Below, in pieces: positions 28,641 through 45,893 of a DNA stretch of 64,000 nt. Origin of the DNA: Porphyra umbilicalis. Lineage: Eukaryota; Rhodophyta; Bangiophyceae; Bangiales; Bangiaceae. Below the pieces are notes generated by a model. That model saw only the letters and a list, made by a program, of their open reading frames with translations, had not been told where the DNA came from and searched no databases. The stretch is taken from positions 55,745-119,744 of the forward strand of contig KV919009.1 of the NCBI GenBank assembly GCA_002049455.2, written 5' to 3'. The translations under genes were made by a program, and so were the position numbers. The number at the start of each line of letters is the position of its first letter. Position 1 is the stretch's first letter.

Positions 28641-29327
28641 ATGGCCCCTGCATGGCGGCTGGTGGCGACAACGTCGACCGCGGCGGCGGCGGTCCTCCTA
28701 CTCTTGGCGGCCGCAACCACGTCGCAAGCGGCGTTGCCCGCGATCCGCCCCCCGCCAGCCGCCGCTGCGGCCGTCGCCGCGGCGACGGCGACGGTCAACG
28801 CAACGACCTTTCCCAGCGACCGCCAGGCGGACGACGGTCCCGACGCGGACGACGACCCCGAGCCGATCACCGACAAGCAGGTGCTGCGCTTCCGCAACCG
28901 CTTTGCCGACCTCGGCGTGTCCTTTGACCAGCTCATGGCGGCGAGTCAGGCGGGCACCCTCGACGCCTACAACGCCGACATCAACAATGGGCGGGAGGTG
29001 CTGCTCCACGTTTCTCGCGCGGTGCGGCGGTACCGGTCCATTCTCACGTCGCTCCACGCTGCCGGCCGCTGCGTCGACTTTGTGCGGCAGGCCACCCCCG
29101 ACGAGCCCGACACGTGTGGCGTCGAGCGGTTGCGCCGTTGCCGCCGCGGCACCGCGGACGACCGCGATGGGGTGCTGTTGTGCGCGGCGCACAAGAACCT
29201 CGGCGTGTCCCCGCCGTTTCGTACTGCCGACGGGCGGGCGGCCAACAGCTTTCGGATACGCGCGCTGCCGCTGCGGCCGGTCGTGCGCAGCCAGACGGGG
29301 GGTGTGCCGGCGGGTGCCGCCCGCTAG
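28641..29327 (+). CDS. Secreted protein of unknown function
   Basis: ATG 28641 opens a 228-codon frame ending TAG 29325-29327. The N-terminus is a typical signal peptide: basic start, hydrophobic VLLLLAAATTSQA core, probable cleavage after the Ala near residue 30. The mature part has a balanced helical region (DKQVLRFRNRFADLGVSFDQ, NGREVLLHVSRAVRRYRSIL) with several Cys (RCVDF, DTCGVERLRRCRRG, LLCAAH), suggesting disulfides. No family is recognised. The same frame stays open for 141 more codons after the TAG with protein-like sequence, so the stop may lie in an intron, be read through, or be a lesion. Confidence 0.6.
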   Translation: MAPAWRLVATTSTAAAAVLLLLAAATTSQAALPAIRPPPAAAAAVAAATATVNATTFPSDRQADDGPDADDDPEPITDKQVLRFRNRFADLGVSFDQLMAASQAGTLDAYNADINNGREVLLHVSRAVRRYRSILTSLHAAGRCVDFVRQATPDEPDTCGVERLRRCRRGTADDRDGVLLCAAHKNLGVSPPFRTADGRAANSFRIRALPLRPVVRSQTGGVPAGAAR

Positions 29328-29753
29328 AGCCACCCCGACGCGCCGTGGCGGCCGCCGGCGGGCGGCGCGGCGAGCTTGCCGCCTGCGCCGTGGTCGGTGG
29401 TCGACGCGGTCGGGCGGTGGGCAGCGGCGGTCGGCGGCGGGCGGCGCGGCGGCGGCGGGACCGCCGCCCGGCGTCGCGGCAGGGCGGCTGCGGCGGCACC
29501 GGCGGAGGTCGCCGTGGAGGGGCTCCCCCGCCCGACCGTGGCGACCGCGTCGCGCACGGCCGCCGGGGGGGAGGTGCCCTTTTACTTTGAGGAGCAGTAC
29601 GAGGAGATCGGGCTGGTCGTCGACGACCCGTTTGTGGCATGGTTCAAGGAGTTTTTGTTCTATTCGGCGGGCTGCGTCGAGTTTTGTTGCTCGACGCTAT
29701 TTGCGGGGTCTGCGCTGTGTGACGTGAACGCGAGCCCAGACTTTTGGTTCTAG
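29328..29753 (+). other. In-frame continuation of the secreted-protein ORF after TAG
   Basis: Same frame as the upstream gene. After a Gly/Ala/Arg-rich stretch it gives clearly protein-like sequence near the end (VPFYFEEQYEEIGLVVDDPF, VAWFKEFLFYSAGCVEFCCS, ALCDVNASPDFWF) and stops at TAG 29751. The cysteine-rich end suits an extracellular protein. The TAG at 29325 is immediately followed by AG, and the bases CCGCTAG read as a possible 3' splice site, so an intron removing the stop is one explanation. Confidence 0.45.
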
Positions 29754-31379
29754 CTGCGGGGGGGGGGGGAGGGGTGGCGCAACGTGATCGCGTGCGCAAG
29801 TGGAGCCACTCACCGCCCTTGTTTCCATTTTCCTCCGTGCCGCTTCCCGCCCTGCGGCCACGCGTCCGCCCCCTTTCCACGCTCGCCTGCCCCGCCCCGC
29901 GCTGCTACATTGACGGTGGCGCCAGATCCCCCACCTGCGTCACCATTGGCATGCCAGCAACCCCCACCCGTCGGGCCTTCCCCCGCCTCGGTCGCGACAG
30001 GGCACGGGTCAGCCGCAGCGGCGGGGCCGCCACGGCGTCGGGCGCACTGTCGGGTGCGGCATCCTCCGGAGTTGCCCCGGTCGAACGCGCGATGGCCCCG
30101 CCACTGCGCTGTGGTGGTTAAAGGGGGGTTACACGCAAGCCCGATTTTGCTCGATTCTCAGGTCCGCAGCGACTGCGGGAGCATCCGCAAGCAAGTCCGT
30201 TTCGCAGAAATATGAGGTTGAAGCAGCGATGCGGCCGTGGTTGACCAAAGTGGATGGAGCCACGAAGTGAAAGCAAATGATATCTCCCAATCGAGGCGAT
30301 GCTGAAAGTAGCAGCCAGCCAATGGAAGAGTACCGACTCAGGGTCTATCCGCCAATGAAGAGCTCCTATTAAGAGAAATCTGCGGTGACGAGTTTTGACA
30401 TCCGACCGTTTTCGCTGGGTCTGCCAAGATGCAGCACGAGCGCGTCCGTCATTGACAACTATTGACAACAGCCTCGGAGAGTGAAGTGGCCAACGATGCC
30501 TGTACCGGGTGTGGAGAGCTGGGCGCTGATGGCGCCGACGTCATGGCGGATGACGGTTTGGGAGCCGACGACAACGCCCACGACACCAGTTGTGTGGGCG
30601 CTGATGGCTGTACCAGGCGCAGAGGTGAGGGCGCTGATGGCGCCGACGTTGTGGCGGATGACGGCCTGGGTGCCAATAACGACGTGGACGGGCGTGAAGG
30701 CTGGTTCCCGTACCGGGGCGAGCACGGGGAGGACGTCGAAGTGAACAGCGGCACCTCCGCCGTTGGCGACGACGTGCCCGTCGCATGTTGGGGTCTTTGC
30801 GTGTCAAAGTGGGTGGCGCACCATAGCCTGCAGGGGCGTGGCGCGGCGTAGTGGGGGAAGGATCTGATGTACCAGGGAGTGGACGGGCATGGCGGGGCGT
30901 GGTGGGCAGTCAGCTTGTGTCTTCTCGGCGTCAAGGGTCACCGCCATCTTCTTCTCGGCTTACTGTGATGACACAAGGGGAGACTGCCTTACCCAGCCAG
31001 CTTGCACAGCCCCGGGCGATCAATTGTGGACAGCTGCCGCATGTTTCTGCGCAGGGAGGCGCTACAGGCTTTTGCGCTTGCCTGGTGAAGCGCACAGTGG
31101 AGTGATTCCGCGCTCGCCATGCCCGAAGCTAATCGAGTCGCATTCAGACGCTTCGGGAGGTGTAAGGACAGTTCTGACGGCTTCCGGGAAACATAAAACG
31201 CAGCCATTTGAGGTTAAAAAGGTAAAAAACCGTCAAGTATGGTGTCGTGCTGGGGGGGTCCGCAACATCTTGCGGTCAACAATCGACTAATCCGCCGGTT
31301 GCGTGCGACCCCCCCTTTAAGCACCACAGCGCTGACGCGGCCGCCCTACCGAAAATGACGGATCAAAAAAGCACGATAT
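29754..31379. other. 1.6-kb intergenic region
   Basis: GC-rich to 30.1 kb, neutral afterwards. Apart from the 108-bp duplication no feature was recognised. Confidence 0.4.
30523..30738. repeat. 108-bp tandem duplication
   Basis: GCGCTGATGGCGCCGACGT at 30523 recurs at 30631 (108 bp, 36 codons), each followed by GGCGGATGACGG. A partial GCGCTGATGGC also lies at 30598. The unit length keeps all frames open on both strands. The minus frame reads VIRHDVGAISA-type repeats. No coding evidence beyond that. Confidence 0.75.
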
Positions 31380-32059
31380 CCCAAGCTCTGGCCAATCAGA
31401 ATCCGCATGTTGACCCGCTACCCAAAGTGGCTTGGTGTGAATAGTCCGACGACTCTACGGTGGATGACATCCTCGCGTTCCACACTGTGTGGCGGTATGA
31501 AGTTCCCGAGAAAAAGTGAGATCTTTTCTTTCATTATAAATAGGGAGGAGTTATTTCGATTCGACCGCATCCAACTCCGCCGACTATCCTGCAGAAGATC
31601 CCTGAAAATGTGTTGAACAATCGCGAAGATTATCTTCCCAATCCGCTCGAGACGTCCTGCAGATCGTATTTGGAACTTACCTGGTCCGATCCGACAATCA
31701 GACTTGTCTCGGATGGCGGATGGTCCTGAGATCAGACCAGGAACTGTTTTCCAGATTGTTTCCAGGACTGTTCCGCAGCGTATCTCGTGGCATGGCCACT
31801 GGAACAAACGACAAACAAATCCGTGCGCGCGTTGGACCGACTGGTCTAGCGTTCGAACAAGATCCGATCTCCATCCTGTACCCGTAGAATGAGTACGCGC
31901 ACGGGTTCCAGACTGTCTTCAGAGCCAGGCAACAGCCTCGACGAGAGATAACAGTGTCGTCACGCGATAAGCGCATACCCAGGATAAGTTCAGAACTACG
32001 TCGGTGCCCGACATGACAGACAAAGCACAGGGATAGCTGAGAATCAGTCCTGCAGATAA
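31380..32059. other. Neutral-composition segment with a TATA-like box
   Basis: Contains CATTATAAATAGGG at about 31533-31546, a good TATA-box candidate on the plus strand, but no ORF follows within the segment. It may be part of a transposon long terminal repeat. No partner copy exists in the window. Confidence 0.35.
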
Positions 32060-32297
32060 AGCAGCAGGACAGCCTTTGGAACGATCCTGTCGACAGTTAG
32101 TATTCTTCTTCATCCGATCGCTTGATACTCTATCCGAAGATCTACCGCCTGGCATGTCAGCAGGACAGCCTTCGGAACGGTCCTGTCGACAGTTAGTATT
32201 TTTATTCATCGGACTGCTTCCTGCTTTATCTGGAGATCTGCCGCCTGGAATGTCACCAGGACAGCCTTCGGAACGGTCCTGTCGACAGTTGTTCTTT
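32060..32297. repeat. ~97-bp tandem repeat, 2.5 copies, ending at an N
   Basis: ACAGCCTTCGGAACGGTCCT-type anchors occur at about 32068, 32165 and 32263. The third copy is cut off by the ambiguous base at 32298. On the minus strand the units read as a 32-residue repeat (NCRQDRSEGCPADMPGG), probably incidental. Confidence 0.82.
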
Positions 32298-32298
32298 N
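32298..32298. other. Ambiguous base (N), possible assembly join
   Basis: The only N in the window. To the left is neutral-composition repeat DNA, to the right 70-percent-like GC coding DNA. The repeat and the plus-strand gene are both truncated exactly here. Confidence 0.7.
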
Positions 32299-33360
32299 CC
32301 ACGACGAGTGCCGGAGCGGGAGCGGGTGCCGGGGCCAGACCCGCGGAACCAGCCGGCGGTCGAGCGCATGCAGCCCGGCGTACTGGCACGGCGGCATCCA
32401 CGAGGTGCACTCGCAGCGGTGCGATGGAGAGTTGGCCGTCCGCTTCAGCCGCGAGGTGGCGCGCTTCGGGACGGCGTTGCCGTCGTGGTTCGTCCGGACG
32501 GCGTACGCCTTCGTGAGGGAGCACGAGAACGAGACTGTCCTCGCGAGTGGGTGCCGTGGGTGGCGCACTGCTGGGGCCGTCTGATGAGCCTCATGCCGGA
32601 CGCGGTGACCCCACCGGCGGAGTACCTGACGGAGTTGTCGCTTCCGTATCTACGGACGTCGGCGGACCTCGGGTACGTGCAGGCCGCCGAGGCGCAGCAC
32701 CGGGAGGCGATGGATGCGGCGGCGTACTACTACGAAGAGGCGGCGGACAAGAACGCCCGTCGTGTGGACGCGGGGGCGGCGCCACGGGCGGTCCTGCCGT
32801 ACGAGTGCCCGGCCATCAGCTCCTGGCCGAAACCCGAGCGGGTTGGGCGCGATCTGACGCTCCTTTTGGCGGAGGGCGACCGCGTGGCGGTAAACCAAGC
32901 GCGGAAGGAGGTGGACGTTCGGGCGCGCAAGGGCGGCGACGTCCCGTACCTGATGACGGCGGGCCACCATGCCAAGGGCTTGAACCGAGCCGGCTGGCGG
33001 CGCGTGCCGGAGGCGCTGGGCGAGTTGGAGCTGCCGCGGGGGCTGCACGTTGCGTACCCCACTGTGCTGTCGTATTATTACGAACGCATGATGGGGGACG
33101 ACCGCAGCTGCTTGTGGGACATGTACGTGGTGGAGCGCGTGCAGCTCACCGCCATCGCGCTACTGGCGGACCTCGCCGGCGGGCGTGTCCACCGCATCTC
33201 TTCAGCCCTTCTCCACCGGCTGGAGCGTCTTCGGCTGGACGACATGGCGGAGGGGAGTGCGGACGAGCACGCCCGGCTGCAGCGGCTGCTCCAAGGCATG
33301 GCAGTGCTGCTCCCCAAATGGGGAGACGTGGTGGCGGCTGCGGGTTTGCCGCTCGGGTAG
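32299..33360 (+). CDS. Unidentified protein, 5'-truncated, convergent with retrotransposon pol
   Basis: From the N onward one frame reads protein-like sequence (PAYWHGGIHEVHSQRCDGEL, SREVARFGTALPSWFVRTAY). It shifts near 32545 into the frame EWVPWVAHCWGRLMSLMPDA, which continues YLTELSLPYLRTSADLGYVQ, DVPYLMTAGHHAKGLNRAGW, YYERMMGDDRSCLWDMYVVE and a Leu-rich helical end, to TAG at 33358. No family is recognised. Composition is normal for a folded, helical protein. The frame continues after TAG (next entry). It probably belongs to the retrotransposon as an antisense ORF or to a second element. The 5' end is lost at the N. Confidence 0.5.
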   Translation, partial: PRRVPERERVPGPDPRNQPAVERMQPGVLARRHPRGALAAVRWRVGRPLQPRGGALRDGVAVVVRPDGVRLREGARERDCPREWVPWVAHCWGRLMSLMPDAVTPPAEYLTELSLPYLRTSADLGYVQAAEAQHREAMDAAAYYYEEAADKNARRVDAGAAPRAVLPYECPAISSWPKPERVGRDLTLLLAEGDRVAVNQARKEVDVRARKGGDVPYLMTAGHHAKGLNRAGWRRVPEALGELELPRGLHVAYPTVLSYYYERMMGDDRSCLWDMYVVERVQLTAIALLADLAGGRVHRISSALLHRLERLRLDDMAEGSADEHARLQRLLQGMAVLLPKWGDVVAAAGLPLG

Positions 33361-34587
33361 ACGCCGTTGCCGGCGGAGGCGGACGACGCGGCGAACCCAT
33401 ACGGGTTTCGACTAGCGTTGGATGCTAGGGGCGTCAACTTCCCAAGTCGGGCCGAGCGCGCGACGTCGCAGAGCTCCACGGCGCGGGGGCCGCCGGGGGC
33501 GTCCGGGAACGTGGGGGCGGGGCCCACCCGGGGCGGGGACAGCGACGCGGCCCGGGAGGACGCGGCGGCGGCAGGCTCGGGATCGCCGTCATGGCGGGCC
33601 GTGTCGCCGTCGCGGTCGTCGCCGAGGGGGCGTGCCCGGGACGACGCCCAGTGGGTGCCTTCGCGGTCCCCGTCGCGGTCGTCGCCGAGGGGGCAGGCCC
33701 GGGACGACGCCCAGTGGGTGCCGTCGCGGTCCCCGTCGGCGTCGGCGTCGACAACGCGGACACGGTCACCCGTTCGGGGGTCGTCGCGTCGGGCGACGGG
33801 GTCGCGCCGGACACCGCCGCCGGGACGCGGCACGCCTCGCCCTCGGCGCGGGCCGACGCCGGGACGGGCAATGCCGCCGCCGGCGGCGTCGCAACGGAGT
33901 GGCGCGGCGGGGGAAGCCGCGGGAGGTAGCCGGCGGTCGTGGTCACCGCCAGCGGCGTCGACGCGCCGGCGGAAGCCGCCGGCGTCCGCTGGAGCGTCAG
34001 GGCGGGCGGACGGCGGCGCGGCGGCGCCCCGACCGGGCGACGCGCGGCGCGGCCGGTCGCCGGTCGGCGCCGATGGGGCGGCCCGGTCGACGGCGGGGGC
34101 AACCGGGGCGCGGCGGAGCGGGGGGACCACGCGGGGGAAACGCCCGAGGTCGTCCGAGGGGCAGGAGGTGGAGCCCCCCTACGCGGCGCACCACAAGTGG
34201 TACCGCGTGGGGTCCATTGCGCCTGAAGGCGACGCGCTCCGGGCGCACCTTTCGGCGGCGGCCGTGAAGCGCTTGGCCGCGGCGGGCGGCGCGCCGGCTG
34301 GCGCCGTGGGGCTGGCGATCAGCCGGGTGCTGCGTAGTGGCGTGGACCGGCTGCACGCGTCCCTGCGGACGTCCAGCGATCGCACGATGGGGGAGGCGAT
34401 GGACGGCGTCGTCAAGGTCGTCAAAGAACTCCGCCGAGCGTCGCACCTGGAGGACGACATTGGTCGTATCCTGGACGAAGTGCGGGCGGCGGACCGCGTG
34501 GCCTCTGCTGACGAGCGGTTCGTCTATGACGACAGCGACGAGTCGGGGGGTGAGCGTCCCACGGGTCCTCGGCAGCGGCACCGCTAA
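33361..34587 (+). CDS. Continuation after TAG: Arg/Ser-repeat and helical C-terminal part
   Basis: Same frame as the preceding ORF, open for 408 codons to TAA 34585-34587. After ANPYGFRLALDARGV it enters an Arg/Ser/Pro low-complexity region with two near-identical DDAQWVPSRSPS repeats. It ends in an ordered-looking domain (EPPYAAHHKWYRVGSIAPEG, LRAHLSAAAVKRLAAA, VVKVVKELRRASHLEDDIGR, EVRAADRVASADERFVYDDS). Its stop shares two bases with the pol stop of the opposite strand. Interpretable as a nucleic-acid-binding (SR-like) protein of unknown role. Whether it is translated by readthrough of the TAG or is a broken gene is open. Confidence 0.45.
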   Translation, partial: TPLPAEADDAANPYGFRLALDARGVNFPSRAERATSQSSTARGPPGASGNVGAGPTRGGDSDAAREDAAAAGSGSPSWRAVSPSRSSPRGRARDDAQWVPSRSPSRSSPRGQARDDAQWVPSRSPSASASTTRTRSPVRGSSRRATGSRRTPPPGRGTPRPRRGPTPGRAMPPPAASQRSGAAGEAAGGSRRSWSPPAASTRRRKPPASAGASGRADGGAAAPRPGDARRGRSPVGADGAARSTAGATGARRSGGTTRGKRPRSSEGQEVEPPYAAHHKWYRVGSIAPEGDALRAHLSAAAVKRLAAAGGAPAGAVGLAISRVLRSGVDRLHASLRTSSDRTMGEAMDGVVKVVKELRRASHLEDDIGRILDEVRAADRVASADERFVYDDSDESGGERPTGPRQRHR

Positions 34588-37500
34588 GCGGTGGCGCACG
34601 CGTTGACCCGTGTGGTGTGGGCCTTCTCAAAGCGGAAGATCACGACGCGCCACACGGGCGGCGGGGAGGAGGCGGTGCGGCCTGCCACCGTGAACGTAGG
34701 ATAGGGGGGGTTGAGTTGCACCCGAGCGGCGCAGTAGCGCGTCGCTAGCGTCCACCAGGCCTGGTGTTGCCAGCGCGGGGCGACGAGGGTGATGTCACAC
34801 GGATAGGAGGTGATGCGGGCGAGGACCTGCGGTAGGAAAGAAAAGGGGGGGTTGGCCCACCCGTTTTCGACCGCCCAGTCGACCGAGAACGCCGCGGCGC
34901 AGCCGCGCGCGGCGTCCGCGGGGGACAGGGGCAGGAACCGGGGTAGATGGGTGGCCGCGGTGGCGGTAAACAGGTCGACCGTATGGGGGCCCCAGACCGC
35001 GTCGAGTTTCTCGAAGGCGGGGCGGCCCAATGCCCAGTGGGCAGCCGGCGGGTTGTCGGGAAACGCCGCGAGGAGGGAGGATGCCCAAAGGGCAGGGACG
35101 GTCTCCTCGTGGCTTTTCGCCGGGGACGCCCAGCGCACATCCACGAGCATGGCACCCGTCTCATCGGTGTGCTGCTGGACCGCGACGCAGACCCACTGGG
35201 GTTGCCGCGGGGGCGGGGCGAGGACGACCGGCGTCGTCGGGAAGGCGTCGTCGGGGAGCGTAAACTTCTTCTGCTTCGCTAAGCGGATGACGAGATGTTT
35301 CGGTAAACCCGAAATGGGTTCCCACGAATCATCGCCCCGGCCATAAGTGGCCCACCGAACTTTCGCCACGATGCCGTTATCGGTGTCGTGGCGAATAGCC
35401 AACAGCCGGTCGATTTCCCAGGTCGGATCCTCATCGGAGGAATTCACGTCGGGGAGCGGGGTCTGTGTAAGCAGATGCGGCTGGGCATCCGGTCCCGGCA
35501 CCGGGCGCGGTGCCGGTGTGACGTCGTTACTGTTGACCCGTCCTTCGCCATCGCCTTGGTCGATTACGAAGTAGGTGCCCTCCGTATCGAGAATCTCGAA
35601 CGGGCCAAGGGCCTTGGGCAGCAGCTTGTGCCCCCCGCGGTGGGAGCGGAGGTAGACGAAGTCACCGACCACCAGGTCCTTGTTCTTCGGCCGTACCCGG
35701 CTGTCCCAGTCTCGCTTATAGCGAGCTTGGTACTTGTCAAGGGAAGCGCGCACCGTCGGGATGAGCTTTTTCAAGCCCTGGATGATGGCGCGTTTCACCA
35801 TGAGCGGGGAGCCATCGGCGGATGCCAGCGGGGACGAGCCAGCGAGGCCCTCAACTGTGAGGTTTGGCATACGGCGGGGGATCAGGAGGTCGAACGGCGC
35901 CATACCGGTGGCCCTATGCGGGCAGGTGTTGTACGCCATGCTCAGGGCGGGGAGGAGGCGATCCCACTGGCGAGGGTGCTCCTCACAGAAGGCCCGGATC
36001 TGGTTCAGCAGCGTACGGTTATACCGTTCCACCTGACCGTTGGTCTGCGGATGGTAGGGCGTCGTGTATTTGCACCTCGTGCCCAACATCTTCATGACGG
36101 CGCGGAAGAACGCGTTGTCCATCTGTCGACCCTGGTCCGATAGGACGCAGTCGGGGGGCCCATAGGCCGCGACCCATGCGGTCAGGAACGCCGACGCGAC
36201 CGTGACGGCGGTGATACGTCGGAGCGCAACCGTACGGGTTAGCTTCGAAAAGCGGTCGGACATGACGAACACATACCGGTTGCCGTCAACCGTGTTGAGC
36301 AGCGGCCCGAGGATGTCAATGCCAACCTCGGTCAACGGTTCCTTTGGCGGGAACAGGGTCATGGGGGACGTATGTCGTCGCTCCTGCAGCCGGTTCTTCG
36401 CGCACGGCGGGCACTGCCGGACGAAGTCGTACAGGTCGACAATCATCGACTCCCAATAGAAGCAACGCTTCATGGCGGCGTACATCCGCTGCACCCCAGG
36501 GTGACCTTTGGTCGTCGGGTAGTGCTCGAGGCCCATCACGCGGGAGCGTAGGGCCTCGGGGATGTATACTTGCATAACGTCCGTCGTTGGCTGACGGCGC
36601 ACGAGGCGGCCTTCCTCATCGAGGACGAACCGCGTCGGCTTGCCCGAGTCGATCACGGCGCGTAGCTGCTGGCATCGGCCGTCCGCGCCTTGTGCGCGAA
36701 GGAGCTCCTCCGCTGTGATAGGGGGAGGCGGTAACGGCACCGAGAAGTTGTTGGCGTCCGTGCCCCTTGCGGCCTGAGCTAGAAGGAAGCACGGGATGTC
36801 GTCGTCCAGCTCCTTCTTGTCCAGACCCGTCGTGGGTACGCGGGACAGGGCATCGGGGAGGTGGTGGTTCGCTCCCTTCTTGTACTTCACCTCGAAGTCG
36901 AACTCCGCTAAGCGGAGGCGCCAACGGAGCAGACGACCGGTGGCCGTAGTCAGCCGGTAGATCCAACTGAGGCATTCGTGGTCGGTACGCACCGTGAACC
37001 GCGAGCCCTCCACATAGTGTCGGAGGTGGAGCACGGCCCAGACGAGGCCCAGGCACTCCTTCTCGGTGGCCGAATAGTTGCGTTGCTCGGGCTGCAGGGC
37101 GCGGCTGTAGAACCCCACGGGTTTGAGCTGGCCGTCCTGCTGCTCTTGGAGCAGGGCGCACCCCAATTGGGTGTCGCACGCATCGACGTCAATGGTGAAG
37201 GGCGCTCCGCGGCGGGTGAGCGCCAGGACCGGCGGATGAAGCAGCGCGTCGCGTAGGCGCGTGAACGCTGCGGCTTGTGTCTCGGTGAACGTCGGGAGCG
37301 TGTCGCCGTACGCCTTGGTTGTCAGCTGGTTTAGGGGCGCTGCGATCCGTGCGTAGTTCGCGACGAAGCGGCGGTACACGTTACACATTCCGAGGAAGCT
37401 ACGCAATTGCGTCTTTGTTCGCGGGTGACCTACCTTCGCGAGCGCCTCCAGGTTCTTGTTGTGCACCCGCATCTCCCCAGGGGATATGATGTGCCCGAGG

Positions 37501-38639
37501 TACTCGACGGACGTCTGGAAGAACTGGCACTTCTTGGCTTTCAACGTGACGCCGGCCCGACCCAAGCGGGTCAGGGCTTCGTCGAGCGCTTTCACGTGGT
37601 TCTCCGGGGTGTCGGAGAAGACGATGACATCGTCGAGGTATACCAGGCACATTTGCCAGGTCATCCCGGACAGGATGATGTCGAGGGCACGTTGGAAGGT
37701 CGCAGGAGCGTTGGTGAGGCCGAAGGCCATCTTCAGGTACTCGTACGTGCCCATGTGGCAGGTGAAAGCGGTCTTGTCGATGTCGTCCAGGGCCATGGGT
37801 ATCTGCCAATACCCGGCATTGCAGTCGAGCGTTGAGAAGACGCGGGCGTCTCCCAGCGAGTCGATGCAATCCTCCATCCGCGGGATGGGATAGGAGTCCT
37901 TCTTGGTCACTGCATTGAGACGACGGTAGTCGACGCAAAAGCGTGGCGACCCGTCTTTCTTGGGGACGACAACGACAGGGCTGGCCCATTCACTGGTACT
38001 TGGTCGGACGACCTTGGCTTCCAGCATCCGATTGACCTCGTCACGGATCATGTCACGGGCATGGTGACCCGCGCGGTACGGTTGCTGCCGTATCGGCTTC
38101 GTCCCGGGTTGGACCTCCACGCGGTGGACGGTGGCGTCGATGGAGCCGAGCGTCCCGTCCAGCATATACGCATGGCGGCGGATGAGTGCCTGGACATCCG
38201 GGAGTAGCCGGTCGGGTACGCCAGAGAGATCGACTTGGTCTAGCACCGCTTCTGCGGTCGCGGTGGGCGATGCCGCGTCGTCAGTGACGAGCAGGCAGTC
38301 GACATCGTCGACCGGGCTAACGGTAGCGAAGATAGTTCCCTTGCGGAGGCAGACCGGTTTGTCGCTGAGGTTAGCGACTTCAACGCTGAAGCGTTGCCCC
38401 GGGACAACGACGGCCAACCCACGCGCCGTTTGACAGCGGTGATGCTTGTGAAGGCGGTTGTACGGCGCGACTACGACCTGACCAGCGAGGTCGGCGGTGA
38501 CCAGCAGGGCCGTCCGGGTTTGCGGGGGCAGCACCCGTCGTTGCGCGAGGCGCACCGTCGCATCCTTCGGGGATCGGCGGCGTTCTTTCTTGCCGCGTGC
38601 CGTGCACGATAAGATGGGCACCGAAGCATCGGTGGACCA
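34584..38639 (-). CDS. Retrotransposon pol: RT, RNase H, integrase, chromodomain, Dam-like domain
   Basis: Open from the codon after TGA 38642-38640 to TAG 34586-34584, about 1351 codons. The first ATG-like start is not needed if translated with protease. RT: YLDDVIVFS near residue 328 (counted from 38621), with VVVPKKDGSPRFCVDYRRLN before it. RNase H: FTIDVDACDTQLG and TDHECLSWIY. Integrase: H2C2 zinc module (GHPGVQRMY ... CPPCAKNR), then D in GIDILGP, D in LSDQGRQMD and E in NGQVERYNR. Chromodomain near 35262-35432 (TWEIDRLLAIRHD, WEPISGLPKHLV). After it, about 34700-35035, a domain with GPHTVDLFTA, LPRF, W-ANPPFSFLPQVL and LVAPRWQHQAWW matches the Dam-methylase-like domain of DIRS elements, including the NPPF motif. 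All key residues seen are intact. Confidence 0.93.
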   Translation of the reverse strand, partial: WSTDASVPILSCTARGKKERRRSPKDATVRLAQRRVLPPQTRTALLVTADLAGQVVVAPYNRLHKHHRCQTARGLAVVVPGQRFSVEVANLSDKPVCLRKGTIFATVSPVDDVDCLLVTDDAASPTATAEAVLDQVDLSGVPDRLLPDVQALIRRHAYMLDGTLGSIDATVHRVEVQPGTKPIRQQPYRAGHHARDMIRDEVNRMLEAKVVRPSTSEWASPVVVVPKKDGSPRFCVDYRRLNAVTKKDSYPIPRMEDCIDSLGDARVFSTLDCNAGYWQIPMALDDIDKTAFTCHMGTYEYLKMAFGLTNAPATFQRALDIILSGMTWQMCLVYLDDVIVFSDTPENHVKALDEALTRLGRAGVTLKAKKCQFFQTSVEYLGHIISPGEMRVHNKNLEALAKVGHPRTKTQLRSFLGMCNVYRRFVANYARIAAPLNQLTTKAYGDTLPTFTETQAAAFTRLRDALLHPPVLALTRRGAPFTIDVDACDTQLGCALLQEQQDGQLKPVGFYSRALQPEQRNYSATEKECLGLVWAVLHLRHYVEGSRFTVRTDHECLSWIYRLTTATGRLLRWRLRLAEFDFEVKYKKGANHHLPDALSRVPTTGLDKKELDDDIPCFLLAQAARGTDANNFSVPLPPPPITAEELLRAQGADGRCQQLRAVIDSGKPTRFVLDEEGRLVRRQPTTDVMQVYIPEALRSRVMGLEHYPTTKGHPGVQRMYAAMKRCFYWESMIVDLYDFVRQCPPCAKNRLQERRHTSPMTLFPPKEPLTEVGIDILGPLLNTVDGNRYVFVMSDRFSKLTRTVALRRITAVTVASAFLTAWVAAYGPPDCVLSDQGRQMDNAFFRAVMKMLGTRCKYTTPYHPQTNGQVERYNRTLLNQIRAFCEEHPRQWDRLLPALSMAYNTCPHRATGMAPFDLLIPRRMPNLTVEGLAGSSPLASADGSPLMVKRAIIQGLKKLIPTVRASLDKYQARYKRDWDSRVRPKNKDLVVGDFVYLRSHRGGHKLLPKALGPFEILDTEGTYFVIDQGDGEGRVNSNDVTPAPRPVPGPDAQPHLLTQTPLPDVNSSDEDPTWEIDRLLAIRHDTDNGIVAKVRWATYGRGDDSWEPISGLPKHLVIRLAKQKKFTLPDDAFPTTPVVLAPPPRQPQWVCVAVQQHTDETGAMLVDVRWASPAKSHEETVPALWASSLLAAFPDNPPAAHWALGRPAFEKLDAVWGPHTVDLFTATAATHLPRFLPLSPADAARGCAAAFSVDWAVENGWANPPFSFLPQVLARITSYPCDITLVAPRWQHQAWWTLATRYCAARVQLNPPYPTFTVAGRTASSPPPVWRVVIFRFEKAHTTRVNACATA

Positions 38640-39082
38640 TCAGACGCGTTGACGGCGTGGGTAGAGCGCGTCGACGTGGCGGTTGATGAAACTGGTGCCG
38701 AGCAGCACAGGGACGGCGAGGCGCGGGACGACGACAAAGTCGACGTCCGTGGCGAAGCCACCGGAGCGCAGGCGTAGGGTGATCATGCCTCGGGCGGAGA
38801 TAGGGTTTTTATTTGCGTCCACAATGTGGGGCAAATGAGGGTGTCGATGCAACCGCCGCTCCCAACCCTTGGGCAGGGCGTCCACCCGAATGATCGAGGG
38901 CCCGGCGCCTGTATCCAGGGTCGGTGTCATCAGCCGCATGCGAGCCTCGTCAAAGCCGAGGGCCGCGGGGATGGTATACTGCCGGTACACCGGAGCCAAG
39001 ACACGGTGTATCCGTATCTTGGGACCCTGCGGGCTGGGGGCGCCACGGGGCGGCCGAGCCGCTAGCGGCACGCCCCGTGTTA
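38640..39082 (-). CDS. Retrotransposon aspartic protease
   Basis: The frame is -1 relative to gag and entered through the heptamer at the gag stop. There is a GTG but no ATG near the beginning, which itself argues for frameshift entry. The retropepsin signature LDTGAGPSIIR gives the catalytic Asp-Thr-Gly. A later VLLGTSFINRHVDALYP fits the C-terminal ILG(R/T)-type motif. It ends at TGA 38642-38640, and the pol ORF continues in the same frame directly after. Confidence 0.88.
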
Positions 39083-39089
39083 GTTTCCC
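39044..39089 (-). promoter_or_regulatory. Probable -1 programmed ribosomal frameshift signal (gag to protease)
   Basis: In gag frame the last codons are CCG GGA AAC TAA. G_GGA_AAC (39089-39083) is a canonical X_XXY_YYZ slippery heptamer lying directly on the stop codon. Slippage by -1 reads CTA ACA CGG, exactly the protease frame. Three bases downstream a perfect 9-bp GC-rich stem can form: CACGGGGCG (39079-39071) with CGCCCCGTG (39052-39044). The 18-nt loop contains the palindrome GCCGCTAGCGGC. Confidence 0.82.
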
Positions 39090-40963
39090 GGCCCGGCAGG
39101 GGCAGGTGGGTCCACCGTTGGACTCGGATCCGGTTGCGGATCCCTGGGCGAGGCGCCGACCGTCTCGTCTCCGCTGAGGGAGCCGGTGTCGTCCGGCACC
39201 AGCGGATCACCCCAGGGGTCCCCGGCGATGGCGGCCATCGCGTATTGCAAACGACTCGGGCGTAAGGCGGGACGGGCCGCGCCAGGGGGTCCCGGGGCGA
39301 CCGTAGGCGGCGCACCTGTCCCCATCGCCCGGTCGAGCGAAGGACATACGCGGGCGTAGTGACCGAAACCGCGGCAGCGGTGGCACTGCACCTGGCTCAG
39401 GTGGACCAGAGCCGGCCGTCCCGCCGGACCGCCCGGTCGGGGAGACCATTGGGTTGCCGTTCTGGCCGACGGCGTCCGGGCCGCCGGTGGCGTAGGGTTG
39501 AATGCCTGGAACGGCTGCTGCGGTAGAGGCCGACCCATGGGGTTCCGGCTCTGTGGCGGCGTGGCCTCCGACGTCGTCGCTGGTGGCGCCGCCCAGAGGA
39601 CCGGTTCGGCTTTTGCTCCGCTCCCGGCGCCCAGCTGCAGGACGCTCTTGGCCCTGGCGTACCGGTCGGCTTTGCCGGTGGTGACCTTGACCGAGCGGAG
39701 CCCATCGCCGATATTCTGCGAAAGCGCCACGAGTTCGTCGAAGGTGGCGCATGTGCGGTCGGCCAGCTCGGCTTGGGCACGTACCGAGGGGTGGAGCCCT
39801 TTCAGGAACAGGTACCGTAGCTGCCCCGGGTCGTACATACCCATGAGCTGTCGGCCGAGCCTCATCAACCGCTGATAGAAAGCGCGTTCGCCTTCGTCTT
39901 GGCGCTGCTCCGCGGTGCGGAGGGCCATTTCGGCGGTGTGCAGGGCGTCCTCGGGTGCATAGCGGGTCAACAGATAGTTGATCGTGTGCGGGAAACCGGT
40001 ACCGACGGCGCTGCCGTGTGGGCCATTTGTTTCCTGGACGAAGTCGTCCTTCGCCTCACCGCCAATGCGGTAGGCGAGGAGGTACGGGGCCTCGCCCAGA
40101 GTGACATCCATTTCGTCCGCGGCTGTGCGGAAGCGAGTGAGGAGCGCCAGGACGGCCAGCGGATCCGAGCCATCGAAGAGCGTGACGCCGTGGAACGGAC
40201 CGTCCAGCAGGCGATGGCGCCTGCGGAGTTGGCTTGCTTGCGACCGGCCATACGTCGGATCCGCATTGCGGACGAGGTAGCGGCGGAAGTCGAGCAGCGA
40301 CGAGAACGGGCCATGCTTGGACGTCAAGGGGAGCGGCCAGGGGATGACCGCCATTGGCGTCGAAGCTGTCCGACCGGTGACCCGCGTGCGGGTGCGGCGC
40401 CGCGAGCGAACGCGGTGGCGCGCGGGGCCGGTGCTGTCACTGCTGCTGCTGCTGCTGGGGTCTCGGGGCGGCTTGTCGTCATCGGCAGACCGCGAAGAGC
40501 GGGCGTCGGGATCCGATCGTACGCCCGCGCTCCGCGAGGCCAACGGCGACGTTGAGGCAGCGGACCTGCGCGACCGGGGCCGGTCGCGCGGGGCCGGGGT
40601 GTTTGCCGGTGTTGGGTCAGTGGGCCGGGGTCCACTGGCGGTCGACATCGGCAACGTCCCAGTTGGGTCGCGCAACGTTGTCACGTCGGCGCGTAGCTCT
40701 CGGACGGACGCGGCCAACGTACGCACGAGCGTCGTTAACTCGGCGACCGCCGATTGCTCCGCGCGACGACTAGTATCGCCGAGGGAAGCGCCCGAGCCGC
40801 CCGAAGCGGGAGCCGCTGCGGTTGGATCGGGGAGACCAGAGGCATCGTGGGGAAGAGGGGGAGTCGTAGTCGCAGGGGCAGACCCGTCGGCCGTACGCCG
40901 AGCGTCAGCGCCCGTATCATGAGGGGGGGCAAAGCGCGGGGGATCGGCACCCCCGCTCGCCAT
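39080..40963 (-). CDS. Retrotransposon Gag
   Basis: ATG at 40963 (MASGGADPPRF) is the first in-frame ATG, preferred over an upstream GTG at 41035. It has 627 residues ending TAA 39082-39080. The N-terminal 230 residues are Pro/Ala/Ser-rich and disordered-looking. The Retrotrans_gag capsid region spans about residues 250-450 (GEAPYLLAYRIGGEAKDDFV, EQRQDEGERAFYQRLMRLGR, LRYLFLKGLHPSVRAQAEL). The nucleocapsid zinc knuckle CHRCRGFGHYARVC, a perfect CX2CX4HX4C, lies near residue 530. Packages element RNA in virus-like particles. The C-terminal Pro-rich tail leads into the frameshift site. Confidence 0.92.
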   Translation of the reverse strand: MASGGADPPRFAPPHDTGADARRTADGSAPATTTPPLPHDASGLPDPTAAAPASGGSGASLGDTSRRAEQSAVAELTTLVRTLAASVRELRADVTTLRDPTGTLPMSTASGPRPTDPTPANTPAPRDRPRSRRSAASTSPLASRSAGVRSDPDARSSRSADDDKPPRDPSSSSSSDSTGPARHRVRSRRRTRTRVTGRTASTPMAVIPWPLPLTSKHGPFSSLLDFRRYLVRNADPTYGRSQASQLRRRHRLLDGPFHGVTLFDGSDPLAVLALLTRFRTAADEMDVTLGEAPYLLAYRIGGEAKDDFVQETNGPHGSAVGTGFPHTINYLLTRYAPEDALHTAEMALRTAEQRQDEGERAFYQRLMRLGRQLMGMYDPGQLRYLFLKGLHPSVRAQAELADRTCATFDELVALSQNIGDGLRSVKVTTGKADRYARAKSVLQLGAGSGAKAEPVLWAAPPATTSEATPPQSRNPMGRPLPQQPFQAFNPTPPAARTPSARTATQWSPRPGGPAGRPALVHLSQVQCHRCRGFGHYARVCPSLDRAMGTGAPPTVAPGPPGAARPALRPSRLQYAMAAIAGDPWGDPLVPDDTGSLSGDETVGASPRDPQPDPSPTVDPPAPAGPGN

Positions 40964-41460
40964 CGGAGATAGGTTGGCTTCTTGTCTCGAGATAGCACAA
41001 ACCCGGACACGACGGCACCACGGCCCGTCGGGCACCGTCGAGCGACTCCCCCGGCCTGCAACAACAGCCGCCGGGTGACCGGGACCACGAAGTGGTCACG
41101 TCACGTGAACCGTCAGGGGCGTCCGCACCGTTGTCGCCGGGGCTCGCGAGAGGAGAGGCGTCCCTCGAAAGGGACGACGCCCTCTCCCCTGCTGCTCCAC
41201 CAAGTGTGGCAACAAAGAAGGCGCGAACAAATACCCTAGAACCACACTGACAGTACAAAAGAAAAGGACCTAAAGGGTCAACCTACCGAGAGGACCTAGA
41301 CGGCGCAAAGGCGCTCAAAGGCTAGGACTCGAGAGGGACGCCAAGATTTAGATGGCGAGCAAGACGGGGCAGCGCGGGGCAAGGCCGGCGCCGTAATAAC
41401 AAGACGAAAACAGACGAAAAAGAGAGACGTAAGAGTAGCCCCTGGCCCGAATAGGGGGGG

Positions 41461-41950
41461 CTACTTAGGGAGGGACAGCCGTCCCACAGGCCGCATTCCG
41501 AAGTACGGAGAGACGGGCGCAAGTCCCGGCAGGGGCATAAGTACTGGACTTAGCCCCTGCCGAATGCAACACCCACCAGCCCCCGTGGCAATCGGCATAT
41601 GGGCCGAGGCGAGGCTCTCTGCTTCGGGCTCGTCCTCGGCACCGTCGTCCCCAACAAGGTCAGAAAAAATGTCAGAGAGCAGCTCGGCGCGCACGGTGGC
41701 GGCGGAGGGCATGGCGTCGCGGGGCTCCAAGTCTCGCAGCTCCGCAGAGAGACCGGCACACGGGTCACAGCTCTGCAGCGTGCGCGACAGGCCCACCAAA
41801 AAGTCCATGATGGAAGCCCACTCGTGCAAGCGCGCGGGGAGGACGACGTGGTTGCCAACGCGTGTGGCCGGGACAAAGCCACACGCCTACGGCGCAAGAA
41901 GTGCATGGACGCCACAATGGCGCAGGGCACTGACACTAATGCCGCCCTCG
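41461..41950 (-). pseudogene. Degenerate ORF, possibly a hAT transposase fragment
   Basis: On the minus strand 41461-41889 reads HEWASIMDFLVGLSRTLQSC and PSAATVRAELLSDIFSDL, loosely resembling the EW..I..L...L segment before the C-terminal part of hAT transposases. A frame change near 41889 would join it to SVPCAIVASMHFLRRR upstream. No ATG in frame. Assignment is tentative. Confidence 0.2.
41527..41562. other. Inverted repeat, 10+5-bp stem
   Basis: CGGCAGGGGC (41527-41536) pairs with GCCCCTGCCG (41553-41562). Inside, TAAGT/ACTTA adds five pairs with one bulged base and a 5-nt loop. Could be an LTR-internal hairpin or a terminator-like structure of the minus-strand element. Confidence 0.6.
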
Positions 41951-42138
41951 TGTCGAGATGCTGTCAGCTGCTGTCAGCTGTCCGGTCGACCGCACGAGCC
42001 ATGAAAAGATTTTTCGTTTCATTTCACACGATCGAAATGAAGAACCCAGTGAGTTGACAAGACCCCCGACGTAGGTTAGCAACAACCTGCGGAGCAAGGC
42101 TGGAATGGCAGGTTTCGCTGTCACCCGGGGTGATCGCA

Positions 42139-42652
42139 ATGGGTTCTCGAATCGTCCCCTGCTTGGTGGATTCGAGTGACGATGACGAGACGCAGACTCG
42201 CGAGCTGCGCAACTCGACGGAGGTGTCGCACGCCGACGCGGCCAAGGCTGAGCTGGACGCCTTCTTGCATCTGGTTGATGGCAACAACAAGATGGACACG
42301 CTCGAGTTTTGGAGGCAACAGAACAACAAGTTCCCGTTGATGACGTTGGTGGCCTTCTCTGTTCTCGGGGCGGTCGGAACGTTGGCGGCAGCGGAGGGGG
42401 CTTTTTTCGACGGCGGGCAATATCATGACGCCGAACCGGTCTGCCCTCTCGTCGCAGCACCTGGAGATGCACTGTCTTATCCGGGGAAACGCGCATCTGC
42501 TCCCGACGCCCCTCGGCAAGGTCCACGTCCTGTCGGCGTTGAATGAGAACAAACTGCTATCCAAGATGTTGTTGGCTAGTCGCCGTCAAGTGTCCGGAGA
42601 TGCCAACAACATGTCGTCAGCGGACGACGCGCCAGTTGAGTGTATGCTGTAG
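42139..42652 (+). pseudogene. hAT transposase C-terminal dimerisation domain, frameshifted
   Basis: From ATG 42139 the frame reads an acidic spacer, then LDAFLHLVDGNNKMDTLEFW, RQQNNKFPLMTLVAFSVLGA and TLAAAEGAFFDGGQ, the pattern of the Dimer_Tnp_hAT domain (L.FW.....FP.L..LA....). The domain continues in the +1 frame from about 42420 (IMTPNRSALSSQHLEMHCLI, RGNAHLL) to a stop at 42652. So one base is missing or extra near 42417-42425. The catalytic RNase-H-fold part of a hAT transposase is absent. Interpreted as a decayed element end, although the short intact dimerisation domain could be a captured fragment. Confidence 0.72.
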
Positions 42653-43260
42653 GCGACAGCGACGCGGTGTTTGATTGTGTGTGTATACCATCGGGAGGTA
42701 TCGACTAGTGATGGGGATGGAGTCGTGGGGATTGGGAGAGACTCTGTGGCACTACGGTGCGGCATCCCCTGCGTTGCCAAGATCACCCACTCGGCAACGC
42801 ACGGGCCGCTCACTCGGTGCCGCGCACACGAGCGACCGGGCACAGGCACAACAACCAGCGCCTCCGGGCGTACACGTTTTCCTGTGGGTAGTTTTCCCCT
42901 CCGAGACACCCAGCCGGGGCCTTGTGCGGAGCTGCTGTCGAGAATGCCGACTATGCCCGCCAGCGGTGGGTCGGGGCGCTCCCACACCAGACAGATGGCC
43001 GAGGTCGAGTCCGGCCGTGAAAAGTTCCCGCAGAATACGGGGTGTGTTTTCTGGGAACAAAGTACCCGGTCACACATTTCGGTCGAAAAGTGCCCACGAA
43101 AAAATGCATACTGTTCACCGGCTGACAATGTACGCTTGATTGGAGCTCTCTCTTTCCGGCACGCGGTTGCTTGACAGGAAAAATCTCAAATACGCAGACG
43201 CTGGCAGAAAACGAGTACGCTTGAAGACCCCTGGATCATACACATAACTTTTCATTTTTT
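42653..43260. other. Intergenic
   Basis: Neutral composition, no recognisable feature. Confidence 0.4.
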
Positions 43261-43287
43261 CTAGTGCACGCGCGGGAGTACTTGCGG
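43261..43287 (+). repeat. 27-bp dispersed repeat, copy A
   Basis: CTAGTGCACG followed by CGGGAGTACTTGCG. Near-identical to 45867-45893, with related T-rich sequence preceding both. Confidence 0.7.
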
Positions 43288-45866
43288 TTTGCCCTGTGTC
43301 CACACCTTTTCGGGCCGTACGCAGTGTATCGATCACTGCTGCGGGTCGTTCGGGCATGGTTCGGTGCGCAACATGCGTCCAACAGTTTCTGTAGCTTTTC
43401 TCGTCTGTAGCATGTCAGACGCGGTCAGACGGACGCCGTACGTCACGTTTCGTGTTTAGGACGTCCGGGTTAGCTGCCTCAGAATGAGGGTGATGCGTTC
43501 AGACCTCCGGAAACGTCGATCCGGTCAGACGCGTGGACTGTATTTTGTGATTAGGTCCAGCGATGGCGCTCCAAGGGACAACCAAGGCACATTCTGTTCG
43601 AATATTCGAGCAGACGCTCGCGACCCATCGTCCTAGAGGAGAGAGCTCCCGGACGGCCGGCGGGAGCTGCCGACGGCTGCAACACCGCTATCGTCGGGGT
43701 CACCACCGCGGCGGCCGCACACGCCCGACACATCCCCCGCGCGCGTGTCGGTGCGCCACCGCCCGCGACCAACACCGCCGGCGCACGGTCGGCCGCCGCG
43801 CCGAAGAGGCGACCAGCCCCGCCCACCCCCCAGCGCGCGCGTGTGGGTGTCCCCGCCGTGGCCATCGTGGCGCCCGTCCGCCTCCACGCCACGTGCATGA
43901 ACCGCGGCGCCCGACGCCCGGCGCCGCTGGCGGCCGCACCGCCCGTTGCGAGCGATATGGCATGGTCCGAGGCGCCGCCGGCCCCCCCCGCATAGTCGCG
44001 GCGGCAGCGTTGACGGCGGCCCCGCCCACTGAGGCGCTCCCCCACTCCTCGCCCCCGCCACTGTCTGACGGGGGACGAGCTCCGCCGCCGTTGGGAGTGG
44101 GGAAGGTCGCCGGCAGCGTCGCCGCCGCCTCCCCTGCCGTGGCTGCCGCCGCCGTCGCTCCCGCCATCGCCGCGACTGCGACGGGTGGTGGCTGCGACTG
44201 CGGTGGCCGCGGCGGCGGTCTGTGATCCATGGCCCCACCGTCGCCGCTGCCGCCGCTAGTGGGTGTGCTCACCGCCGCCTACACGCCGACGGGGGCCGGC
44301 GGCGCGGAGTTCGAATGCGGGCTGCCTGCGTCGGCGGCGGCGGCGCCCAACTGCCGCGGCCATGGCGACCGGGACGCATGCGATCGACCGGCCGTGTGCC
44401 GCGTGCCAGGCCGCATGCCCGAGCTTTCTCTCTTGCGACCGGCCGCGCGCCGCGTGCCACGCGCGGCTCACCCGCGCGGCGGGTAGGGGGGGCGGCCACC
44501 GCCGCTGGCGGCGTCGCCGCCGCGCCTGCCGCCGACCTGGCGGTGGGCGGTCGACGACCGCGCGCGCGACGCGTGCCCGCACGCGGCGGCGGGTGGCGGC
44601 CGCGGCCACGGCCGAAGAGGGAGTGGCCGCGGCGGCGGCGGCGGCCGCGGAGATCGATTCCTCCGTGGTGGCGGGGCGCGGGTGCGGCCGCGCGGCAGCC
44701 ACCACCGCCCGTCGCGCGGCGGCCACCGAGGCGGTTGGGCGCGGGGGGCAGCGCGCCCCGCCGACGGCCTGGTGGCACCCGAGCTACCGCGTTCCACCCC
44801 CTTAGCCGCCACCGCCGTCGCCGCGGCGTTTACAGGCGTGCCCATGAGGGCGGTGGCCAAAGCCACGGCTGCGTTTCCGCCCCGCTGCCGTGGCGTCGGC
44901 GGTCGCGCGCGACTGCCGAGGCGGAGGCCGGCTGGTGGGCGCCACCACGGTCGCTCGCAGTGGGGCGCCGTCAGGCCGCCCACGGCGGCGCCGCCGCTGG
45001 TTTCGCCCCGCCCTTACTACAGCGTAGCGCCGGAACGGGGTTGGGGAACTCCCGACCCTGCCCCTCGCTGCCGATGGTCCTTGCCCCTGCCGGCGGGTGC
45101 GTCCCGTCGACGCTACGCGTGTGCGCGCTTAGGGGCGGCCTGTGGCGGCCGCTCCGACGGCAGCCGCAGCCGCGGCGTTGGCATCCCCCCTCCTCACCTG
45201 GCAGCGGCAACAGGCAAGCAGCGGCCGCCCCGCCAGCTGATGGGGCGGGGGCCCCCGGTCGGGCACACCCCGAGCCGCCTCCCGCACCAAGGCGTTGCGC
45301 GTGTGCACGCGGGCGGGGCGGAAGCGGCGCGCCGCCGCCGCCGCGCACCCGCGTCCGCGACGCCGACGGCGGCTCGGTGGGGGCACGGCGGCGCGGCGGG
45401 CGCCGGCGCCGAGCGCCACGCCGACGAGGGGGATGCAGGGCTTTCCTCTGGCGCAAAGGACGCGGGAGCGCGTGGAGACAGGGTGGGGGGGGGTTGAAGC
45501 CCCCCGCGGTTGCCCTGCTGGTCCGCCGTCCACTTGCATGGTCTGCGTGGCGGAGACTGCGCAAGGGCGATTGTACGGGGCTCCCGTGGTGGCCGCCCTG
45601 TGATGTGGATGAGAAAGGGGTGGAAAAAAGACAAAGAAGCTGTATTGATGTGGCGAGACAGTGGCGTAGGTGGAGGTGGCATTGTGTCTGAGCAGCGTTG
45701 CCTCTTGTCAGAGCACCCTCAGAAGATGCCCGTGAAGGTCTTGTCAATCTTTCGTCGTGTGAAAACGGTTTTGTCATTTGGCAATTCCAGGGTATTTCCC
45801 CTGGCCTTTAGGACAGGGTACTATCCAACATGCGCATAAGGGCCCCTATTTTTATGTTTTTCCGAG
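43288..45866. other. 2.6-kb segment between the 27-bp repeats, GC-rich, coding status unclear
   Basis: From 43.6 to 45.6 kb both strands are open over long distances (for example a 489-codon plus ORF at 44222). The translated sequences are Arg/Pro/Ala-rich without domains, and no frame is clearly favoured. A short Ala/Pro frame from ATG 44229 (MAPPSPLPPLVGVLTAAYTP) could be the start of a protein, but the frame closes after 85 codons. Confidence 0.3.
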
Positions 45867-45893
45867 CTAGTGCACGTTGCGGGAGTACTTGCG
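45867..45893 (+). repeat. 27-bp dispersed repeat, copy B
   Basis: CTAGTGCACGTTGCGGGAGT followed by ACTTGCG. Same orientation as copy A, 2.6 kb apart, bracketing a GC-rich block. Confidence 0.7.

Follow-up and report, generated by a model that had tools for sequence, protein, structure and literature searches.

A Dam-like methyltransferase domain behind the integrase chromodomain of a Ty3/gypsy retrotransposon in the red alga Porphyra umbilicalis

The Pol protein of a Ty3/gypsy long terminal repeat (LTR) retrotransposon in Porphyra umbilicalis runs on past its integrase chromodomain, through a linker, into a domain that by sequence is a homologue of the Dam-like domain of DIRS-type retroelements. 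The element lies on the minus strand of the window, the stretch of 64,000 nucleotides of contig KV919009.1 (assembly GCA_002049455.2, positions 55,745 to 119,744) that was analysed here. The Dam-like domain of DIRS elements is already known (PMC3783388, PMC3266345, PMC2685390; papers are cited for those portions of their text that were available), and its function was called unknown in 2011 (PMC3266345). We tentatively propose that the domain was captured from a DIRS-type element, is active in the window family and acts in cis on the element’s own RNA or cDNA, a reading to which, taken whole, we give somewhat less than an even chance.

A preliminary description of this DNA had quoted the motifs GPHTVDLFTA, LPRF, ANPPFSFLPQVL and LVAPRWQHQAWW downstream of the integrase and chromodomain. 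All are in frame in the Pol open reading frame (ORF), and Pfam and profile comparisons bear out its statement that integrase, chromodomain and Dam-like domain follow one another in one uninterrupted frame. The domain lies largely within the interval of that description, 34700..35432, but extends about 113 bases below 34700, to the stop codon at 34584-34586. The part of Pol beyond the chromodomain match, linker plus Dam-like domain, is about 235 residues long. The features of Pol are as follows.

34584..38621, minus strand: Pol ORF, 1345 amino acids (aa), uninterrupted (ORF call and Pfam)
37485..37967, minus strand: reverse transcriptase (RT) domain (PF00078, RVT_1, E 1e-34)
36900..37205, minus strand: RNase H domain (PF17917, E 4.4e-33)
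36048..36563, minus strand: integrase, H2C2 zinc domain (PF17921, E 5e-14) and rve catalytic core (PF00665, E 3.8e-8)
35295..35420, minus strand: chromodomain (PF00385, E 4.4e-4, 20.5 bits, curated cut-off 25.1)
35037..35198, minus strand: linker of about 54 residues, common to the Dam-tailed Pols compared (alignment of nine tails)
34587..35036, minus strand: Dam-like domain (PF05869, the DIRS ‘MT’ domain; Pfam, profiles, hhalign and fold)
34968..34979, minus strand: VDLF, candidate motif I, on the S-adenosylmethionine side
34842..34853, minus strand: NPPF, expected catalytic motif IV, present in 28 of 30 family copies

The evidence for the identity of the tail comes from profiles. Matched alone to PF05869, as the preliminary description had proposed, the window tail scored 15.9-17.8 bits (E 0.0027-0.011), short of the curated cut-off of 28.1, but profiles built without the window gave it 130.0 bits (DIRS rows mostly from the same genome) and 112.6 bits (other DIRS-type rows). 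Against these two profiles, none of 1000 shuffled versions scored above 8.2 and 6.5 bits, respectively, which rules out a chance motif match. Eight other pieces of Pol were scored in the same way; one, which begins at residue 1051 and includes the first part of the tail, scored 37.2 and 33.2 bits, and the remaining pieces listed reached at most 3.0. Comparing profile with profile, hhalign related the window family to the DIRS rows mostly from its own genome with a probability of 99.75% (E 2e-27) and to DIRS-type rows from other sources with 99.56% (E 1.5e-23). PF05869 was found at E <= 0.1 in 13 of 14 aligned members, the window included (best 1.1e-14). One fused Pol of 1459 aa from another dataset, P0128, exceeded the Dam cut-off with 28.9 bits and had RVT_1, RNase H, H2C2 and rve above cut-off and a weak Chromo match; a second, P0129, fell slightly under it with 26.5 bits, and P0131 and P0080 gave no PF05869 match. 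Scans of the tail against PHROGs and NCBIfam returned no family. A protein search on the tail region at full Pol length confirmed none of 1515 candidates at E <= 0.001, and none of 58 pattern matches to the tail in viral contigs was confirmed. A sequence search of the PDB returned nothing for query A1 and seven weak matches for query A2 (best E 0.015), all on the RNase H part.

The structural comparison agrees with this identity. The AlphaFold model of the tail is a Rossmann methyltransferase. The closest solved fold is the cap adenosine-N6 methyltransferase CAPAM/PCIF1, which shares the NPPF catalytic motif (PMC8868631): 6irx (E 5.9e-5) was the sole PDB match at E <= 1e-3 in Foldseek, and CAPAM occupies the top six VIA rows, at 11-16% identity over the aligned part. 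The ranking of CAPAM and Dam is a re-examination of Foldseek’s list and covers the families listed there. Lower matches include non-adenine methyltransferases (COMT, DOT1L, MnmM and others), and the closest predicted viral proteins are phage N6-adenine methyltransferases, named as DNA methyltransferases. The earlier idea of a Dam-like modifier thus keeps its N6-adenine methyltransferase fold, but had overlooked that the nearest solved structure is an RNA cap enzyme. A second AlphaFold2 (AF2) model, of chromodomain, linker and tail with 10 rows, has a mean predicted local distance difference test (pLDDT) of 50.2 in the Dam part and a predicted template-modelling score of 0.25, and serves as a hint for the linker only. 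In this low-depth model the chromodomain forms three strands and a helix, and the linker forms strands at 80-112 and a helix at 113-121 (block pLDDT about 51-59), an order of strand, strand, strand and helix from which the linker is perhaps a second chromo-like module.

The element itself is a Ty3/gypsy LTR retrotransposon with recent insertions. From the ORFs and Pfam, its Pol runs from reverse transcriptase through RNase H to integrase, with an aspartic protease encoded upstream. TG...CA LTRs and 5-bp target-site duplications (TSDs) were found in two copies on other contigs, C3 (both LTRs, 367 bp, 99.2% identical, TSD TCCGC) and C28 (both LTRs, 99.2% identical, TSD GTGGG); the window copy has a 5' LTR only. 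Target duplications of five bases fit a Ty3-type integrase. DIRS elements have a tyrosine recombinase instead of a DDE integrase and no LTRs; the rve integrase and the LTRs with TSDs rule out a DIRS element misread as Gypsy. The chromodomain at the integrase C-terminus lies under its cut-off in the window, and in the related C23 family it lies above (26.4 bits, PF00385). Chromodomain Gypsy elements can fall outside the reference chromovirus clade, according to a paper on brown algae (PMC12477816).

Tails of this kind are common in the genome. We counted at least 143 matches, with 150 of 367 candidates scored. Apart from three short fragment rows, 39 rows match the window tail at 73-100% identity, and 44 loci beyond these were examined with their upstream sequence. 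Twelve of the 44 have a match to the window’s integrase C-terminus and chromodomain in the same ORF as the tail. In 28 of the remaining 32 an SR residue pair stands right before the Dam part, resembling the way RNase H ends in DIRS-type rows; the pair is absent from L055, L065, L066 and L068, of which L055 resembles the L041 lineage. For most loci the DIRS label means no chromodomain match together with the junction seen in the alignment. Two DIRS-type loci with long flanks, L032 and L033, have RT and Dam above the Pfam cut-off (Dam 53.2 and 42.7 bits), and one of the two has a weak tyrosine recombinase match (PF00589, E 0.0093) in an overlapping ORF. By sequence, then, the genome carries the domain in both DIRS-type and integrase-type elements. 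Elsewhere, the same family is present in other datasets at 82-91% identity (P0015, P0017 and P0019-P0023), and a 285-aa protein from another dataset, P0080, shows 64% identity when aligned to chromodomain and tail, with no Pfam domain match. Among the best 120 of 6568 Gypsy relatives above threshold, four have a clear tail (P0128, P0129, P0131 and P0136).

The integrase-type tails probably have a single origin. A single branch (support 78/81) separates the 12 integrase-type rows from the remainder of a tree of 56 Dam domains, and DIRS-type rows taken from other sources lie deep within that remainder. For this unrooted tree the 44 other loci were thinned by hand, with 14 near-duplicates or short sequences removed, P0136 was not included, and L034, lost at the length or match filter, is represented by L075 of the same family; two long degenerate rows group together and their placement is unsure. 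In a tree of RT plus RNase H, a single clade of eight rows (96*) contains all six Dam-tailed Pols included; its two further members lose frame or stop short of the tail. This tree holds 112 of 122 candidates, rows being dropped with fewer than 430 aligned positions or a span above 700, and L031 and L041 are not in it. All nine tails compared share the linker. As the simplest reading of the trees and the shared linker, the domain probably came from a DIRS-type element in a single capture, took its place after the integrase chromodomain and was retained from then on.

What appears new, from sequence, is the Dam-like domain behind an integrase chromodomain; the domain in DIRS elements and the capture of cytosine methyltransferases by Gypsy elements were known already. 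The DIRS domain is homologous and has the same motifs, but follows RNase H in elements with a tyrosine recombinase, whereas that of the window element follows integrase, chromodomain and linker between LTRs. Chromoviruses share Gag, protease, RT, RNase H, an integrase with C-terminal chromodomain, LTRs and a 5-bp TSD, to which the window element adds the linker, the Dam-like domain and a convergent ORF before the 3' LTR. In dinoflagellates and Klebsormidium, retroelements (in one case a Gypsy) captured a DNA methyltransferase, but a cytosine-C5 enzyme that is structurally unrelated; the available text of that paper does not describe a Dam-like-chromodomain fusion and does not contain the word ‘chromodomain’ (PMC5890265). 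The arrangement was not described in the open-access literature searched, as far as its text was available, including PMC2864245. The nearest statement is an ambiguous sentence in PMC6338049; shortly before it, that paper gives DAM to DIRS and lists DCM for both clades, so that we read the sentence as not this fusion. Of red algae, one paper did not find retrotransposon chromodomains in three species (PMC3350952), and another reports that chromoviruses occur in them (PMC3605345).

The catalytic motif is intact in the window family, as first described: it has NPPF, which fits the pattern [ND]PP[FYW], in 28 of 30 copies, the window copy included, and the D of VDLF in 28 of 30, with both in all 11 stop-free copies. 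The D is also invariant in 14 aligned rows and in a 60-row alignment. What the preliminary description had overlooked is that the domain persists in sister lineages whose motif is altered or lost. Among the Dam-tailed lineages compared the full NPPF is kept only in the window’s family, and both motifs are lost in P0131 and P0136. Ratios of non-synonymous to synonymous substitution (dN/dS), which pool related pairs with stop codons skipped and are rough, point to constraint on the domain much like that on the integrase: 0.36 for the Dam core in 11 stop-free copies (integrase 0.31, linker 1.39, chromodomain 0.72, with wide bootstrap) and 0.38 in 23 gapless copies (integrase 0.37, linker 0.93, chromodomain 0.55). 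The 23, among them the 11 without a stop, are drawn from the 30 copies of the family; L009, L023, L025 and L027 fell to the 80% gapless-identity filter, and L017, L024 and L029 (which would also fail it) were left out here and included in the motif counts.

From the full NPPF, the domain of the window family is likely to be an active adenine-N6 methyltransferase. The task shared by all such domains would most likely concern nucleic acid to which Pol is exposed in the particle or in the pre-integration complex. We favour the element’s own nucleic acid because the DIRS domain adjoins RNase H without a chromodomain or DDE integrase. The domain would bind adenines in the element’s own RNA or cDNA, and lineages with an intact motif would also methylate them; the benefit may lie in evading host surveillance or in settling after integration.

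Several observations weigh against this proposal. The window’s own Dam score falls under the Pfam cut-off. Of the sister lineages, P0128 and L041 have IDLF with NPPP, and P0129 has IDLF with NPPT, so that N-P-P is kept and the aromatic lost; in the sister family C460 the motif reads SPPF, and the C23-type family, through VPPV and a deletion, has neither motif. That last family, chromodomain-bearing and numerous in the genome, has a shortened Dam-like tail (L034 6250-7044, and L069, L072-L079; GPYTYVW, VPPV), and its degenerate domain is still constrained, with a dN/dS of 0.31 in 10 copies (linker 0.22). The RNA or cDNA substrate is argued from the shared DIRS context. Support for a single origin is moderate, and the direction of transfer follows the simplest reading of the tree.

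On this comparison of sequences the tail matters in both motif states, and catalysis cannot be its sole use; as a family that lacks the motif is constrained too, the domain may serve in part to bind nucleic acid. It is possible, if doubtful, that binding is all that remains, with the methyltransferase fold kept for that purpose and NPPF a leftover. The lineages with altered or lost motifs and the constraint on the degenerate C23-type domain would fit such a tail. NPPF and the D of VDLF in every stop-free copy of the window family argue for catalysis instead, as do the N-P-P and D of P0128, P0129 and L041, which place these residues on both sides of the deepest split among Dam-tailed Pols in the RT tree. 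Among the DIRS-type Dam domains of L057-L067 and L070, several have FPPF, YPPF, APPF, SPPF, KPPF, CPPF, NPRF or ESPF in place of NPPF, and motif loss by sequence occurs among DIRS-type lineages also.

With a chromodomain and a methyltransferase-like domain in one polyprotein, the chromodomain might dock Pol on marked chromatin and the tail mark either the integration target or the freshly inserted copy with N6-methyladenine (6mA), which would couple targeting to marking. A parallel is N4CMT of bdelloid rotifers, an amino-methyltransferase fused to a C-terminal chromodomain and described as ‘histone-read-DNA-write’, although it is a host gene of bacterial origin, makes N4-methylcytosine, belongs to another methyltransferase subtype and lies outside a retrotransposon Pol (PMC8885841). 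We consider such chromatin guidance unlikely: DIRS elements carry the domain without a chromodomain or DDE integrase, in this genome and in those described earlier (PMC3783388, PMC3266345), and the dN/dS of 0.55-0.72 points to weak constraint on the chromodomain in these small samples. Quite unlikely, too, is its fullest form, a single protein that reads chromatin and writes adenine, inserting where the chromodomain reads and placing 6mA on incoming or target DNA; if true, the element would set its own epigenetic state at each insertion.

An RNA writer in the manner of PCIF1/CAPAM, we think, has a similarly small chance. It would put N6-methyladenosine (m6A) or cap N6,2'-O-dimethyladenosine (m6Am) on the element’s transcript and alter its stability or recognition. 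The place of CAPAM at the head of the structural matches speaks for it, as do matches to PF12237 (PCIF1_WW) in 4 of 14 aligned members (best 4.3e-4). RNA methylation also appears to matter to such elements, since an orchid Gypsy lineage gained an active AlkB m6A RNA demethylase, in that case an eraser rather than a writer and in an additional ORF (PMC9289625). The window’s own domain, however, is not among the PF12237 matches, and the nearest predicted viral folds are the phage enzymes named as DNA methyltransferases. CAPAM itself is a host mRNA cap enzyme with about 470-490 modelled residues, and to judge by length our model would have no counterpart of its other domains.

The data do not separate the chromatin-guided and RNA readings from action on the element’s own nucleic acid. 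The LTR-element context, in which the motif is intact, altered, or lost with the domain still constrained, depending on the family, offers a natural comparison of what stays with the domain. It also raises testable questions: whether adenine methylation, of RNA or of DNA, is deposited by mobile elements, and whether a chromatin reader directs it.

An assembly chimera or lone chance fusion, for which one might cite the undetermined base and missing 3' LTR on the 3' side of the window copy, is so improbable that it can be set aside, given the 39 close rows, the copies C3 and C28 complete at both ends and the fused Pols in other datasets; the worry, raised at the outset, of a chimeric artefact confined to one copy is answered by the same observations.

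The rest of the element and its 3' side are laid out as follows.

41205..41571, minus strand: 5' LTR of the window copy, 367 bp, TG...CA; aligns with both LTRs of C3 and C28
39080..41035, minus strand: Gag-like ORF, 651 aa, one CCHC-like knuckle (zinc-knuckle matches E 0.02-0.036, sub-threshold)
38640..39071, minus strand: aspartic protease ORF (PF00077, RVP, E 7.4e-5, 23.4 bits, above the cut-off of 20.7)
32308..34587, plus strand: convergent ORF between Pol and the 3' end, 350 + 406 aa, split by a stop in the window copy
32062..32253, plus strand: two 96-bp tandem units on the 3' side of the window copy, followed by an undetermined base at 32298

The convergent ORF takes up the interval from Pol to the 3' LTR, and its stop overlaps that of Pol. 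In C3 it is one open frame of at least 766 aa. A Pfam scan gave no match, and antisense ORFs of this kind were found in relatives (L035 7703-10000, minus strand; L031 2-1792, plus strand). Since the versions in the window family and in C460 are related (about 40% over 124 and 113 aa), the ORF is probably a genuine gene of the element. Neither alignment with the LTRs of C3 and C28 nor a repeat search of window positions 29000-46000, which gave no LTR pair, found a 3' LTR of the window copy, whose absence we ascribe to truncation or assembly. The 96-bp tandem units fail to align with C3 or C28.

Elsewhere in the window, a 1000-aa ORF at 25060-28062 on the plus strand has sub-threshold matches to Transposase_21 (tnp2, E 2.3e-4) and DUF4218, and from these is perhaps a DNA transposon of the CACTA type.
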